Under the pieces are notes generated by a model. The model did no database searches and was not told the DNA's origin. It worked only from the letters and a program-made list of their open reading frames with translations. Below are positions 37,865 to 43,911 of a DNA stretch of 43,911 nucleotides, in pieces. The position numbers were made by a program, and so were the translations under genes. Position 1 is the stretch's first letter, and each line of letters starts with the position of its first letter. Source of the DNA: Bacillota bacterium (GTDB taxonomy: Bacteria; Armatimonadota; HRBIN16); the NCBI GenBank assembly GCA_023511455.1, contig JAIMBJ010000030.1, positions 1 to 43,911 of the forward strand, written 5' to 3'.

Positions 37865-39003
37865 CTACACCCACGCGCCATACACCAGCACCAGATTATC
37901 GCGGTGTATGACTTCGTCGGCGCGCTTGAAGCCGAGCCTTTGCTCAATCTGCGAGGTCTGGCAACCTGCGATACGCGCCAGTTCCTCACTGCTGTAGTTC
38001 GTAAAGCCGCGGGCGAATACGTGTCCCTTCTCGTCGCGCACGTCCACGACCTGCTGGGGGAGAAAAGGACCTTCACAGGAGAGCACGCCTGCTGGAAGCA
38101 GGCTTTTGCCATCGGTAACGATACGTTCTCTGGCTCCTTCGTTGACGATGATAGTCCCCGCAGCGGGCAGACCATACGCCAGCCAGCGTTTGCGGTGACA
38201 CAATTTGCGGGGCAGGGGATAAAAAACCGTTCCCACAAATCCATGCCCGCGACAGATGTGGTGGATAATCCCCTCGTGTCTGCCGTGCGCAATCACCATC
38301 GTCACGCCGGAGGTAGTGGCAATCTGTGCCGCCTGCAGCTTGGTCACCATCCCGCCCGTGCCCACGCGCGTGCTGCTTCCGCGCGCCATACGCCAGATGT
38401 TTTCGTCCAGCCGATGCACCTCGCGCACCAGTCGGGTGTAGCGACCGTCTGCGTCGGGCTCGTAAAGCCCTTCCACGTCCGAGAGCAGGATGAGCAGGTC
38501 GGCGTCCAGCAACGAAGCGACCATCGCCGCCAGCGTGTCGTTATCGCCGAAGCGAATCTCGTCAACGGCGACAGTATCGTTTTCGTTAATGACTGGCACC
38601 ACTCCCATTTTCAGCAGTTGCTGCAGGGTATTGCGGGCGTGCAGAAACCGCTGCCGTTCGCCGAAGTCCTCACGGGTGAGCAATACCTGTGCGACGGGCA
38701 GGTCGTACGCGGCAAAAGCCGCCAGATACGCCTGCATCAAGAGGGGCTGACCGATAGCCGCCATCGCCTGCTTGAGAGGCATGGTGGCACGTGTCTGGTA
38801 GGGGGTGGTCTGAGCGGCATAGTTTTCCCACTGGTCGATGCCTGCACGGATAGCGCCGGAACTCACCAGCACCACATCGGCGCCCGAACGATGTTCTGCT
38901 GCGCACTGCATGGCGAGCGAGGCGATGTATACACGGTCTAGCGCACCGGTTTCATCCGTCAGCGTACTTGTTCCAACCTTGATGACAATCCTTCGGTAAG
39001 CCA

Positions 39004-39004
<1 letters not shown>
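37865..39004 (-). CDS. proB: Glutamate 5-kinase
   Basis: ProB phosphorylates glutamate at the gamma-carboxyl in the first step of proline synthesis. The 379-residue protein has the amino-acid-kinase domain ('RIVIKVGTSTL', 'VVLVSSGAIRAG', 'VPVINENDTVAVDEIRFGDN', 'LILLSDVEGLY', 'VGTGGMVTKLQAA'). It ends in a PUA domain ('EGPFLPQQVVDVRD', 'FARGFTNYSSEEL'). Its start overlaps the obgE stop by one base (TAATG), so translation is coupled. The usual next gene, proA, is absent; an unrelated GH172 gene follows. Confidence 0.96.
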
Positions 39005-40302
<1,298 letters not shown>

Positions 40303-40318
40303 CTACCTCGAATGCACG

Positions 40319-40346
40319 AAAAGGCTCGCGCACTGGCGAGCCTTTT
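40319..40346 (-). terminator. Terminator-like hairpin in the rpmA-obgE gap
   Basis: AAAAGGCTCGC (40319-40329) and GCGAGCCTTTT (40336-40346) form an 11-bp stem around GCACTG. On the minus strand it reads as a GC stem ending in a TTTT tract, an intrinsic terminator form. It is after the rpmA stop (24 bases) and 16 bases before the obgE start, too close for a separate promoter. It may attenuate obgE-proB or process the mRNA. Confidence 0.75.
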
Positions 40347-40369
40347 CATTTCCTCACCACCCTGCCGAT

Positions 40370-40642
40370 TTATGCAGTCACCGCTTCGGCAACGGGCACC
40401 ACGCTCACGCGCCGGTTCTTCTTGTCGTGGCTTTCGTATTTCACCACGCCGTCTACCAGCGCGAAAAGGGTGTAATCGCCGCCCATGCCCACGTTCTTGC
40501 CGGGCTTGAATTTGGTGCCTCGCTGGCGGATGATGATGCTTCCCGCCTTCACGAACTCGCCAGCGTATTCCTTCACGCCGAGGCGCTTGGACTTGCTATC
40601 TCGCCCGTTGCGGGAGCTGCCGACACCTTTCTTGTGTGCCAA
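40370..40642 (-). CDS. rpmA: 50S ribosomal protein L27
   Basis: The 90-residue protein begins [19 protein letters not shown], with the basic tail that reaches the peptidyl-transferase centre. The N-terminus starts directly at MAHKKG, without the cleaved extension found in Firmicutes. '[20 protein letters not shown]' is diagnostic. It lies 16 bases after rplU, the usual order. Confidence 0.98.
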
Positions 40643-40658
40643 TTGACCTCACCTCACT

Positions 40659-40970
40659 CTACGCTTCGATGCTCTGTACGCGAAGAACGGTCTGCCACTG
40701 CCGATGTCCGTAGTGACGCCGCTCGTTCTTCTTGGGTTTATACGTGAACCCGATAATCTTCTTACCCTTGACGTGGCGCACCACTTCTGCTACCACTTTC
40801 GCATTCGGTACGGTGGGTGTGCCAATGCGCAGACCGTTATCGTCCTGTACCATCAGCACCTCGGTCAACTCGACGGTCTGCCCTTCCTCCACCGGCAGTT
40901 TTTCCACACGCAATATGGTATTCGGTTCTACCTTATACTGTTTTCCACCTGTCCTGACTACAGCGACCAT
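40659..40970 (-). CDS. rplU: 50S ribosomal protein L21
   Basis: The 103-residue protein is taken from ATG 40970 (MVAVVRTGGKQYKVEPN), the normal length. An upstream in-frame start at 41042 would add 24 residues and lie in the -35 of its promoter, so it is rejected. 'HVKGKKIIGFTYKPKKNERR' and 'GHRQWQTVLRVQSI' are typical. A consensus promoter lies at 41014-41042, giving a leader of about 37 bases. Confidence 0.98.
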   Translation of the reverse strand: MVAVVRTGGKQYKVEPNTILRVEKLPVEEGQTVELTEVLMVQDDNGLRIGTPTVPNAKVVAEVVRHVKGKKIIGFTYKPKKNERRHYGHRQWQTVLRVQSIEA

Positions 40971-41013
40971 TGCCAGCCCACTCCCTGTGGATTTGCCTTC
41001 AAACTCCTGTAGG

Positions 41014-41042
41014 ATTTTACCGAACAAACCTTCCTTTGTCAA
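41014..41042 (-). promoter_or_regulatory. Consensus promoter of rplU-rpmA(-obgE-proB)
   Basis: On the minus strand, perfect TTGACA (41042-41037) and TAAAAT (41019-41014) are 17 bases apart. Start would be near 41007. It is one of the two strongest promoters in the window. Confidence 0.92.
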
Positions 41043-41491: not shown

Positions 41492-42730
41492 TTACCGCCG
41501 GGTCCGGACGAACACACATTGCTTGGTGGGGTCGTAGCGGATGTTTGCACCCAGCACCTGCCGCACTACCTCTATCGGCACATACAGGCGACCCCGTATC
41601 AGCCGGGGCGCCCTCGATGCCTGCATCTGTCTGCCTGCGATGCTATAACGGCTTTGCCCCGCCTGCAAACGAACCTCTCCCCGTCTGGTGACCACGATGC
41701 ACGCACCGTTCTTGTACCAGCGCAATCCACCACGCTCTCCACCAGCCATCAGGTAGCCCACCCAAAAGTAAGCATCTCCGCCGATGTCTATAGCCGGACG
41801 GTTCAGATGCACCAGCCGCCCGTCCCAATCTACCTTCACGGGTCGCTCTCGCGGAGCAGCCGTATTGCGGATGGGCTTGCCCTTCTGCCGGGCAGAACCT
41901 TGCAGTATGTCCCACCCGAGCAGGGTGCCCGTAAACGCATCTACTGCACAACCGTACCCCAGCCAGACGTGTCCAGGGCGGTCGCCGTATACCGTCAATC
42001 GATACACCAGCGTCTGCCAACCAAAGGGATCTGGGTACATGACGAATAGCCTATCCACGACGCCTGCTTCGGCGTTCACCAAACCCAGCTGTTGTGCCGC
42101 CGCCGCAAAGGCTTGCTCGGGGGTCAGGACAGGTATCGTGCTGACTAACAGCGGGTAGTAGACGCAGTTTGCTCCTGTCACCCGTCCGTAGACCCTGTCT
42201 ACATCCACGCGGCACCAGCTGGGACCATACACGCCGTTCGGCAGCCGCTGCCAGAAGTAGACGGTGTGTTCGGCAGGAATGCGCCCTATCCCTGCGCCCG
42301 AACGTACCTCTATGTGGTTGAGCAGCTCGGGCAGCGGATAATGGGTCTGCATGTAGGAACGGGCGATGGGTATCGCCTCCTGCTCGCTCAACGTTGCCCG
42401 CCGCCGCAACATCTCCTCACTAAACGGCTCATCGTAGAATGACTCGTCCAACCACCAGTACCATCTCCAGCTCCAGTGGTTGATATTGAAGGCGCAAATA
42501 AAGAACTCCCAGTTGTTACAGCGCAAACGGTGGAGCGCTTCCACGCCCAGCCGTAGCGAAGGCGGTGCGATGTATTGAACCTCCACTGGCGCGGCTTCAT
42601 CCCCGACGATTTCTCGCACTTTTTGGATTGCCTGCTCGCGGGTGACGTACTGCCAGACATATTGCGCGGATGCCGTCGGCGCCCAACCAAGCCACGCCAC
42701 AAACGTAGCGACGAACACAAAGCGTTTCAT
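41492..42730 (-). CDS. Secreted protein with PepSY/YcdB-like and copper-amine-oxidase-like domains
   Basis: The 412-residue protein starts at ATG 42730 with GAAGGAGGTAAACC upstream and has a signal peptide (MKRFVFVATFVAWLGWAPTA). The body has repeated segments like those of PepSY/YcdB proteins: 'VTREQAIQKVREIVGD', 'TLSEQEAIPIARSYM' and 'VLTPEQAFAAAAQQLGL'. The last 80 residues ('GEVRLQAGQSRYSIAGRQM', 'PRLIRGRLYVPIEVVRQVLG') form a copper-amine-oxidase N-terminal-like domain, a cell-wall or surface module in many bacteria, without oxidase activity itself. PepSY domains often inhibit proteases. The gene lies 22 bases after the caspase-like gene. Confidence 0.75.
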   Translation of the reverse strand: MKRFVFVATFVAWLGWAPTASAQYVWQYVTREQAIQKVREIVGDEAAPVEVQYIAPPSLRLGVEALHRLRCNNWEFFICAFNINHWSWRWYWWLDESFYDEPFSEEMLRRRATLSEQEAIPIARSYMQTHYPLPELLNHIEVRSGAGIGRIPAEHTVYFWQRLPNGVYGPSWCRVDVDRVYGRVTGANCVYYPLLVSTIPVLTPEQAFAAAAQQLGLVNAEAGVVDRLFVMYPDPFGWQTLVYRLTVYGDRPGHVWLGYGCAVDAFTGTLLGWDILQGSARQKGKPIRNTAAPRERPVKVDWDGRLVHLNRPAIDIGGDAYFWVGYLMAGGERGGLRWYKNGACIVVTRRGEVRLQAGQSRYSIAGRQMQASRAPRLIRGRLYVPIEVVRQVLGANIRYDPTKQCVFVRTRR

Positions 42731-42752: not shown

Positions 42753-43911
42753 TCAGGGTAAGAGCCTCAGAGTCGGGTCTCCCTGGAACTCGACGTCGAA
42801 TTGCCCACGGGCCCATATTAGCCCACCGTAGGCAGTTTCTGCCCAATTTCTGGTTGCTTCACGAGCGGTCATGTACGCTTCATGTATCGTGTGATTCTTA
42901 AGCAATTCCATAAAGCCGGGTGACTTCGGCTCATTAGTGCGTTCCCAACCGTCCAGAAATACACACACTGCATTCGAGTGCACGGCGAGATAGCCGATGG
43001 TAATCACCACTTTCGCCCCTTTCCATAGAAACCAGTCGCTCAGTCCGCCTGCCTGCACTCCCGTATCCAGCTCGCACCCCACCAGCAGGACGAGGTGCAG
43101 GTTGGTCAGCGTATAACCACGGCCCCCGATGCTCTCCAGGATGAGACAATCCTGCCATCCACGAAGCCCGGAAATCGCATACCAGTCCGCGTAGCAGGTG
43201 ACGAGCCACTTCTGGCTGTGTTGGGATGCCTGGTCTGGCGGTTTGTTCTCGCCCCTCAATAGTAGCAACTTTCCTGCAAACTGTGCTCCACTGTGCCCCG
43301 AGAACAGGACAGCCTTGAGCGGCTTTGAACCGGTTGCAGGGTCGATATACTCCAGCGCACGGCGCATTTGTCCAATATCAGGGTTACCATACCACCAAGC
43401 AAACCCCTTTAGCCGTTTGAAACCCATCTTCTTGCATCCTTCCCAGAAATATCCTGCTTGTGACTGACCGACATCGGAATTGACAAAGGCGATAATGGCA
43501 GAATACGCTTTCTGAGCATTTTCTGGTTTCGCCTTACGTCGGCGATGGGCTTTGTCGATGTCATGATGGTTGTCTGTCGCCATAAGCAGGAACACATAGC
43601 GTCCGGACTCTTCGGGCGAAGGCATCGTGAACTCCAGACAATGCTGCCCTGGTGTGAGTTGGTTACTGCTCAGGGAGTGACTGTGAACAATGTTCAGCTC
43701 CGGGTCAAAAACCACCAGGTGTGCTTCTGAAGCGGGGCGGTTCTCCGAGGAGGTTAGCGAATAGTGTAAGCGGTAGGTGGCTTGCTCTCCATTATCCTGC
43801 ACAAGTTCCAGCAATCCTGTGGTCAGTTGCAGAAAATCCGACCGGTTGCTATCCCTGTCTGGCAGGGTAGGCACACGCGCCTCTGCCGAAAGCCGATACA
43901 GGTATATCCCG
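42753..43911 (-). CDS. Caspase/CHAT-like (clan CD) protein, 5' end beyond the window
   Basis: The frame is open to the right edge, reading 'GIYLYRLSAEAR' before the GTG at 43874, so the true start is outside. Numbered from that GTG, residues about 20-130 form a beta-sandwich. A clan CD cysteine-peptidase fold follows, with His194 (AVLFSGHSGAQF) and Cys267 (LVLLVGCELDTG) in the arrangement of the His-Cys dyad. 'GLSDWFLWKGAKVVITIG' matches the helix-strand after the Cys in CHAT and gingipain-like proteins, and the end 'FQGDPTLRLLP' resembles the C25-type 'GDPxLRL' close. It may be a secreted or surface protease. Activity, substrate and full domain order are unknown. Its neighbour has PepSY-like repeats. 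Confidence 0.65.
   Translation of the reverse strand, partial: GIYLYRLSAEARVPTLPDRDSNRSDFLQLTTGLLELVQDNGEQATYRLHYSLTSSENRPASEAHLVVFDPELNIVHSHSLSSNQLTPGQHCLEFTMPSPEESGRYVFLLMATDNHHDIDKAHRRRKAKPENAQKAYSAIIAFVNSDVGQSQAGYFWEGCKKMGFKRLKGFAWWYGNPDIGQMRRALEYIDPATGSKPLKAVLFSGHSGAQFAGKLLLLRGENKPPDQASQHSQKWLVTCYADWYAISGLRGWQDCLILESIGGRGYTLTNLHLVLLVGCELDTGVQAGGLSDWFLWKGAKVVITIGYLAVHSNAVCVFLDGWERTNEPKSPGFMELLKNHTIHEAYMTAREATRNWAETAYGGLIWARGQFDVEFQGDPTLRLLP

Follow-up and report, generated by a model that had tools for sequence, protein, structure and literature searches.

A putative exported CHAT/C25-type cysteine peptidase on a shared scaffold and its PepSY-type partner in Armatimonadota

We analyzed a 43,911-nucleotide stretch of DNA from a bacterium of the phylum Armatimonadota (GTDB lineage HRBIN16), namely positions 1 to 43,911 of contig JAIMBJ010000030.1 in GenBank assembly GCA_023511455.1. 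This whole stretch is referred to as the window. Our subject is an incomplete gene on the minus strand at the right end of the window, together with the gene that follows it. The protein is related to the CHAT and C25 peptidase families, it has a His and a Cys that are invariant among its relatives, it is built on a scaffold that recurs in the phylum, and its gene is paired with that of a partner protein. We consider it probable that the gene encodes an exported CHAT/C25-type (clan CD) cysteine peptidase on a lineage-specific FlgD-immunoglobulin (Ig)-like scaffold, and that it is co-expressed with an exported PepSY/YcdB partner. The minus-strand frame was 373 amino acids when counted from an internal GTG and 385 codons when read open to the window end. 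The features of the gene were as follows.

42753..43911, minus strand: 3' part of the caspase-like scaffold gene (385 codons plus stop; the 5' part is cut off by the contig end)
42756..43511, minus strand: predicted C-terminal caspase-like (CHAT/C25-like) domain, from alignments, hhalign and VIA-align
43293..43295, minus strand: codon of predicted catalytic His206 (His194 from the GTG), invariant in 21/21 family members
43074..43076, minus strand: codon of predicted catalytic Cys279 (Cys267 from the GTG), invariant in 21/21 family members
43509..43910, minus strand: end of the common scaffold (last FlgD-Ig-like strand plus strand-rich linker domain), from alignment and the scaffold profile
43835..43911, no strand assigned: 77-bp stretch identical to the start of contig C36 (reversed), an assembly break at a repeat

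In the numbering of the 385-residue frame, His206 was found in the motif AVLFSGHSG and Cys279 in LVLLVGCELD, and the protein also carried GGLSDWFLWKGAKVVITIG and a terminal GDPTLRLLP. An earlier note, made from the sequence alone, had quoted the His-Cys pair, a GLxxWFLxxGAKVVITIG segment and this terminus, and all three were present on the minus strand as quoted. The predicted catalytic His precedes the Cys, and each lies behind a hydrophobic strand (motifs FSGHS and LLVGC), which is the arrangement of clan CD. When 21 divergent caspase-like C-termini, including that of the window protein, were aligned, the His and the Cys were the sole invariant columns in a set whose members were about 13-61% identical to the window. 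At the sequence level, the His-Cys motif is more than a chance occurrence, because both residues were invariant across all four divergent lineages compared and were the only invariant columns among the 21 members. The earlier note had named a lack of conservation in relatives as grounds for abandoning its proposal; the pair was conserved throughout.

A search of 291 Armatimonadota genomes with the window sequence itself located the window-type catalytic domain in five: the genome of origin, two genus relatives (G003, which has it twice, and G005, in which it is frame-broken) and two distant genomes. Both of the latter were also present in genome_contigs as Chthonomonas and Chthonomonadaceae metagenome-assembled genomes. 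A single-sequence scan of genome_contigs and a profile scan of viral_contigs yielded no relatives. The enzyme gene has near-identical relatives in G003 (L036:7900-8236) and G005 (L037:5671-6700) that are frame-broken in the catalytic domain, and these breaks could reflect either decay or sequencing error.

To place the domain, reference alignments of CHAT, C25 and C14 domains were drawn from related genomes and compared by hhalign, with 200 column shuffles as the control. The window-type profile matched CHAT at 89% (E 2e-6, score 49.7; shuffle maximum 21.2) and C25 at 35% (score 34.7; shuffle maximum 26.5), and in both cases 0/200 shuffles reached the observed score. Membership in Peptidase_C14 was rejected, as the match was 2% and the score was inside the shuffle range. 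In the CHAT alignment, the His and the Cys each lined up with their CHAT counterparts, and GLSDWFLWKGAKVVI with the equivalent segment of CHAT; the C25 alignment paired the Cys and the terminal GDPTLRL. The window-type profile also matched an extended family of caspase-like C-termini (97.4%, E 1.1e-11), and this extended family matched CHAT (96.9%) and C25 (96.7%) almost equally. In addition, a 13-member extended-family profile matched the SAVED-CHAT protein 8tl0 in the PDB by sequence (E 8.4e-6). One member (L143:5014-6363) was above the Pfam CHAT cut-off (26.2 versus 24 bits) and a remote member (L206) was above the Pfam C25 cut-off (24.6 versus 23 bits), whereas the window protein passed neither. 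These profile searches, which had been suggested beforehand, support the earlier idea that the protein belongs to clan CD and falls between the CHAT and C25 types. PADLOC found nothing in the window protein. The genome of origin also has a second, more CHAT-like enzyme (L179:1962-5372, contig C29; CHAT score 19.3 bits, below the 24-bit Pfam cut-off); a partner of its own, weakly similar, lies 4 nt downstream.

AlphaFold models were built from three sequences, and two models were compared with known structures: those of the window protein and of L069. For the window model, the best 13 PDB matches in VIA-align were all clan CD proteins (13/13), with ribokinase-type proteins next; they included TPR-CHAT (7zoq, Z 7.7), SAVED-CHAT (8tl0, Z 7.2), DdvA, caspases, separase, an asparaginyl endopeptidase and gingipain K. 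For the L069 model, the best seven were likewise clan CD (7/7; 8tl0 at Z 7.7, caspases and DdvA), with flavodoxin-like proteins next. Foldseek gave no match at E up to 0.001, but its top row was nonetheless the CHAT protein DdvA. The models lend weak support, short of proof, to a caspase-haemoglobinase fold for the window domain. The structure prediction proposed in the earlier note was thus passed weakly: the best matches of both models were in clan CD, but the models themselves were of low confidence.

The region that precedes the catalytic domain defines the scaffold, and a profile of this region was found in 41/291 Armatimonadota genomes, often in multiple copies. FlgD_ig was matched by 34 of 61 scaffold open frames (E up to 0.01; best E 7e-23 in relatives), these 61 being the frames surveyed whose C-terminal part was 150 residues or longer. 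In relatives, FlgD_ig is followed by a DSNRSD-type linker domain, the second strand-rich region. The window retains this second region and just the last FlgD strand (GIYLYRLSA); the FlgD_ig part would lie past the contig end. The beta-sandwich that had been proposed to lie before the catalytic domain is therefore partly supported: relatives have the FlgD_ig-like domain, and the window has its last strand together with the second strand-rich region.

The C-terminal parts attached to this scaffold were diverse. A motif rule marked 26/61 as caspase-like, with a rate of 5.6% on shuffled C-termini and at least one false flag (L189, which is amidase-like). Other matches among the 61 frames were to Amidase_3 (5), CHAT (2), C25 (2), NAGPA (2), NLPC_P60 (2), C39_2 and zincin types. 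A common N-terminus with interchangeable C-terminal enzymes is what characterizes polymorphic toxins, and the scaffold family has this organization. Related 5' halves gave way to unrelated 3' halves at the DNA level: contigs C30 (the window) and C36 were 100% identical over 77 bp and then did not match, and copies A1 and B in G003 were 93.7% identical over 189 bp and then did not match. In the genome of origin and G001, the scaffold was also joined to M23-, Amidase_3-, NlpC/P60- and HExxH-type C-termini (L003:2-1744, L038:5463-10223, L042:8109-9287 and L040:4317-6281), and these genes mostly preceded secreted propeller-like genes, not the PepSY partner. In G048 (L147:1377-6640 and L188:111-3418), the scaffold had a C-terminus with WYVHGLNK...FIINCSA, possibly a further caspase-like type, and the partner followed there as well.

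The frame had been expected to continue past the window, and it did remain open to the window end, where contig C30 of the assembly also stops. The final 77 bp of C30 are the reversed start of C36, in which the frame from the common 77 bp runs into a different, M23-like C-terminus (a scaffold paralogue). We therefore infer that the 5' half of the window gene sits in a paralogue-shared repeat that was lost or left unplaced by the assembly. A genus relative (L036:6376-8133) shows what is missing: about 246 N-terminal residues that open with a signal-peptide-like stretch and go on through an N-terminal region to an FlgD-Ig-like domain. The missing half was not recovered in the genome of origin, where the search turned up no more than a fragment of 52% identity at the end of C54 and a paralogue on C6. 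The C54 fragment (G000:C54:16-402, L220) is an N-terminal scaffold piece at a contig end, 52% identical to L036, and could lie next to the missing repeat, upstream of the window gene. By eye, signal-peptide-like N-termini were present both in complete relatives (L036) and in the partner, which supports export and with it the suggested location outside the cytoplasm.

The partner gene, which like the swappable scaffold goes unmentioned in the earlier note, follows the window gene directly.

41492..42730, minus strand: partner gene, 22 bp downstream, with a signal-peptide-like N-terminus, putative YcdB/PepSY-like repeats and a C-terminal Cu_amine_oxidN1 domain
41510..41722, minus strand: Cu_amine_oxidN1 domain of the partner, residues 337-407 (Pfam E 6e-9, 36.2 bits, cut-off 24.2)

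Caspase-like genes with a partner gene immediately after them occurred in the window, in G003 (three pairs), G005, G080, G100, G013 (two tandem pairs) and G037 (two). At loci outside the training set of the partner profile, the partner followed 11/18 caspase-like genes versus 0/34 genes with other C-termini (E up to 1e-3; Fisher p 5e-7, a test that treats loci of one genome as separate though they are not independent). With an iterated partner profile, further caspase-like loci gained a partner. Pfam matches in the 24 genes behind caspase-like versions were to PepSY (8, at E up to 0.1), DUF4901 (7) and Cu_amine_oxidN1 (11), and one partner relative (L143:6372-7484) scored 42.6 versus 24 bits for PepSY. 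Behind scaffold genes that were not caspase-like, WD40-like propellers were the commonest type, and neither PepSY nor DUF4901 was among the 25 families listed of 38. The partner was also found behind a secreted CHAT-like gene that has no scaffold (G019, L142:7670-9999) and behind a frame-broken scaffold/caspase-like gene (G059, L209). In G042 (L196), an M23-type scaffold gene had a partner after it, though at a distance of about 1.2 kb and with another gene intervening.

Additional arrangements of these genes were observed. In G003 (L035:6996-12179), two enzyme-partner pairs of different caspase-like types stand in tandem; the second type has YTHGAQ..MTACWSG and is internally deleted in G005 (L141:1899-2459). 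In the genome of origin (L042:1951-5362, contig C50), two partner-type genes, one of them frame-broken, lie behind a truncated remnant of a second caspase-like type, so that the partner outlives the enzyme gene. Downstream of the pair in the window, on the same strand (37865-41042), are genes judged by eye to be ribosomal protein L21-like, Obg-like GTPase and glutamate 5-kinase-like.

PepSY proteins hold or stabilize secreted hydrolases, and SleB is presumed to be kept inactive by YpeB, a product of the same operon (PMC13393411); the N-terminal part of YpeB inhibits SleB in vitro (PMC6660665). By analogy, the window pair might work as follows. The scaffold protein would be exported via a signal peptide, which is present in relatives and was lost here with the contig end. 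Its C-terminal domain would form a caspase-like sheet on which His206 and Cys279 make up the catalytic dyad, and this dyad could cleave a peptide bond of a surface, wall or foreign protein. Nothing in the analysis pointed to self-processing, which the earlier note had raised as an alternative. The partner would bind the peptidase domain via its PepSY-like repeats and either chaperone it or hold it inactive until needed. A role as regulator or chaperone is suggested for the partner because of the gene pairing and the type of domain, as in YpeB-SleB. A wider proposal is tentative and on balance doubtful: that Armatimonadota have a domain-swapping extracellular system of CHAT/C25-like peptidases on a common Ig scaffold, each checked by a cognate secreted PepSY protein as a protease-inhibitor or effector-immunity pair.

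Several points weigh against an exported peptidase with a PepSY partner. The AlphaFold models had pLDDT (predicted local distance difference test) values of 40 and 36, too low to be read alone, and every VIA-align Z was below 8, a range that the tool flags as possibly just a common arrangement. The window protein had no match in Pfam, even at E up to 10, or in NCBIfam, and the PepSY signal in its partner was weak (DUF4901, E 0.08). Caspase-like C-termini were assigned by a loose motif rule and corrected by eye, with the shuffle false positives given above, and the Fisher test carries the non-independence already mentioned. Several copies in related genomes were frame-broken or deleted (L036, L037, L141 and L042), and the gene is therefore non-essential. 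Finally, the catalytic His and Cys can be retained for reasons besides proteolysis.

Three other explanations were weighed. The scaffold could deliver interchangeable toxic C-termini against competitors as a polymorphic secreted effector, with the downstream secreted protein acting as immunity protein that shields the producer. The common 5' halves and unrelated 3' halves within one genome (C30/C36 over 77 bp; A1/B in G003 over 189 bp), the wall hydrolases that make up many of the C-terminal types and the persistence of partner genes where the enzyme gene is deleted, truncated or otherwise not intact (L042, L141 and L140) all fit such a system. However, scaffold genes with hydrolase-type C-termini stand next to propeller-type or other genes instead of the PepSY partner, and nothing connected the family to a toxin secretion system, although no search aimed at one was made. 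Moreover, a single partner type that accompanies the same enzyme class at distant loci and in distant lineages fits a common regulator better than narrow immunity, and we judge an effector-immunity system unlikely.

Inactive members are common in peptidase families generally, and the protein could be a catalytically inactive surface or adhesive protein that uses a caspase-like fold for binding. The low confidence of the fold models leaves room for this, but a His and a Cys that are the sole invariant positions in 21 members of such divergence are hard to explain without catalysis, and we give the idea little credence. The least probable explanation, which we regard as very unlikely, is a true Peptidase_C25 (gingipain-type) protease: the terminal GDPTLRLLP aligns with the C25 end, the extended family matches C25 closely and L206 exceeds the C25 cut-off, but the window profile is nearer to CHAT (89% versus 35%), and neither the window protein nor the genus as a whole gave a hit to Pfam C25.

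The familiar settings of CHAT domains are intracellular: CRISPR-guided and SAVED-linked proteases, signalling and phage defence. If the preferred reading of an exported, partner-controlled peptidase is true, a phylum-wide exported version between CHAT and gingipains would be a natural link of both families, and the pair would offer a directly testable model for PepSY control of enzymes besides metalloproteases. It would also assign a function to a multicopy, recombining gene family in a poorly studied phylum. We found no open-access paper that links CHAT domains with PepSY, and a literature search for DdvA found nothing.

Four known systems resemble the window pair in part. Polymorphic toxins of the contact-dependent inhibition (CDI)/Rhs type share the common N-terminal part, the interchangeable C-terminal enzymes and the recombining families; in the window family, by contrast, no delivery module was seen (no delivery search was made) and the partner is tied to a single enzyme class. 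Gingipains (Peptidase_C25, PF01364) are also extracytoplasmic clan CD proteins with a conserved C-terminal GDPxLRL strand, but the window domain is smaller and lacks a Pfam C25 match. In the SleB-YpeB system of Bacillus spores, a secreted hydrolase is likewise encoded in the same operon as a PepSY-repeat protein thought to keep it inactive, whereas SleB is a lytic transglycosylase of other architecture, the window partner ends in Cu_amine_oxidN1 and inhibition by it is proposed by analogy. CHAT proteins (PF12770; SAVED-CHAT 8tl0, TPR-CHAT/Csx29 7zoq and DdvA 8rot) gave the best profile and structure matches to the window domain and have the same His...Cys order and spacing, with LxxC and then GLxxxFLxxGAKxVV. 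The window protein falls under the Pfam CHAT cut-off and differs from them in having its domain on an Ig-like scaffold that is probably exported and in being paired with a PepSY-type protein.
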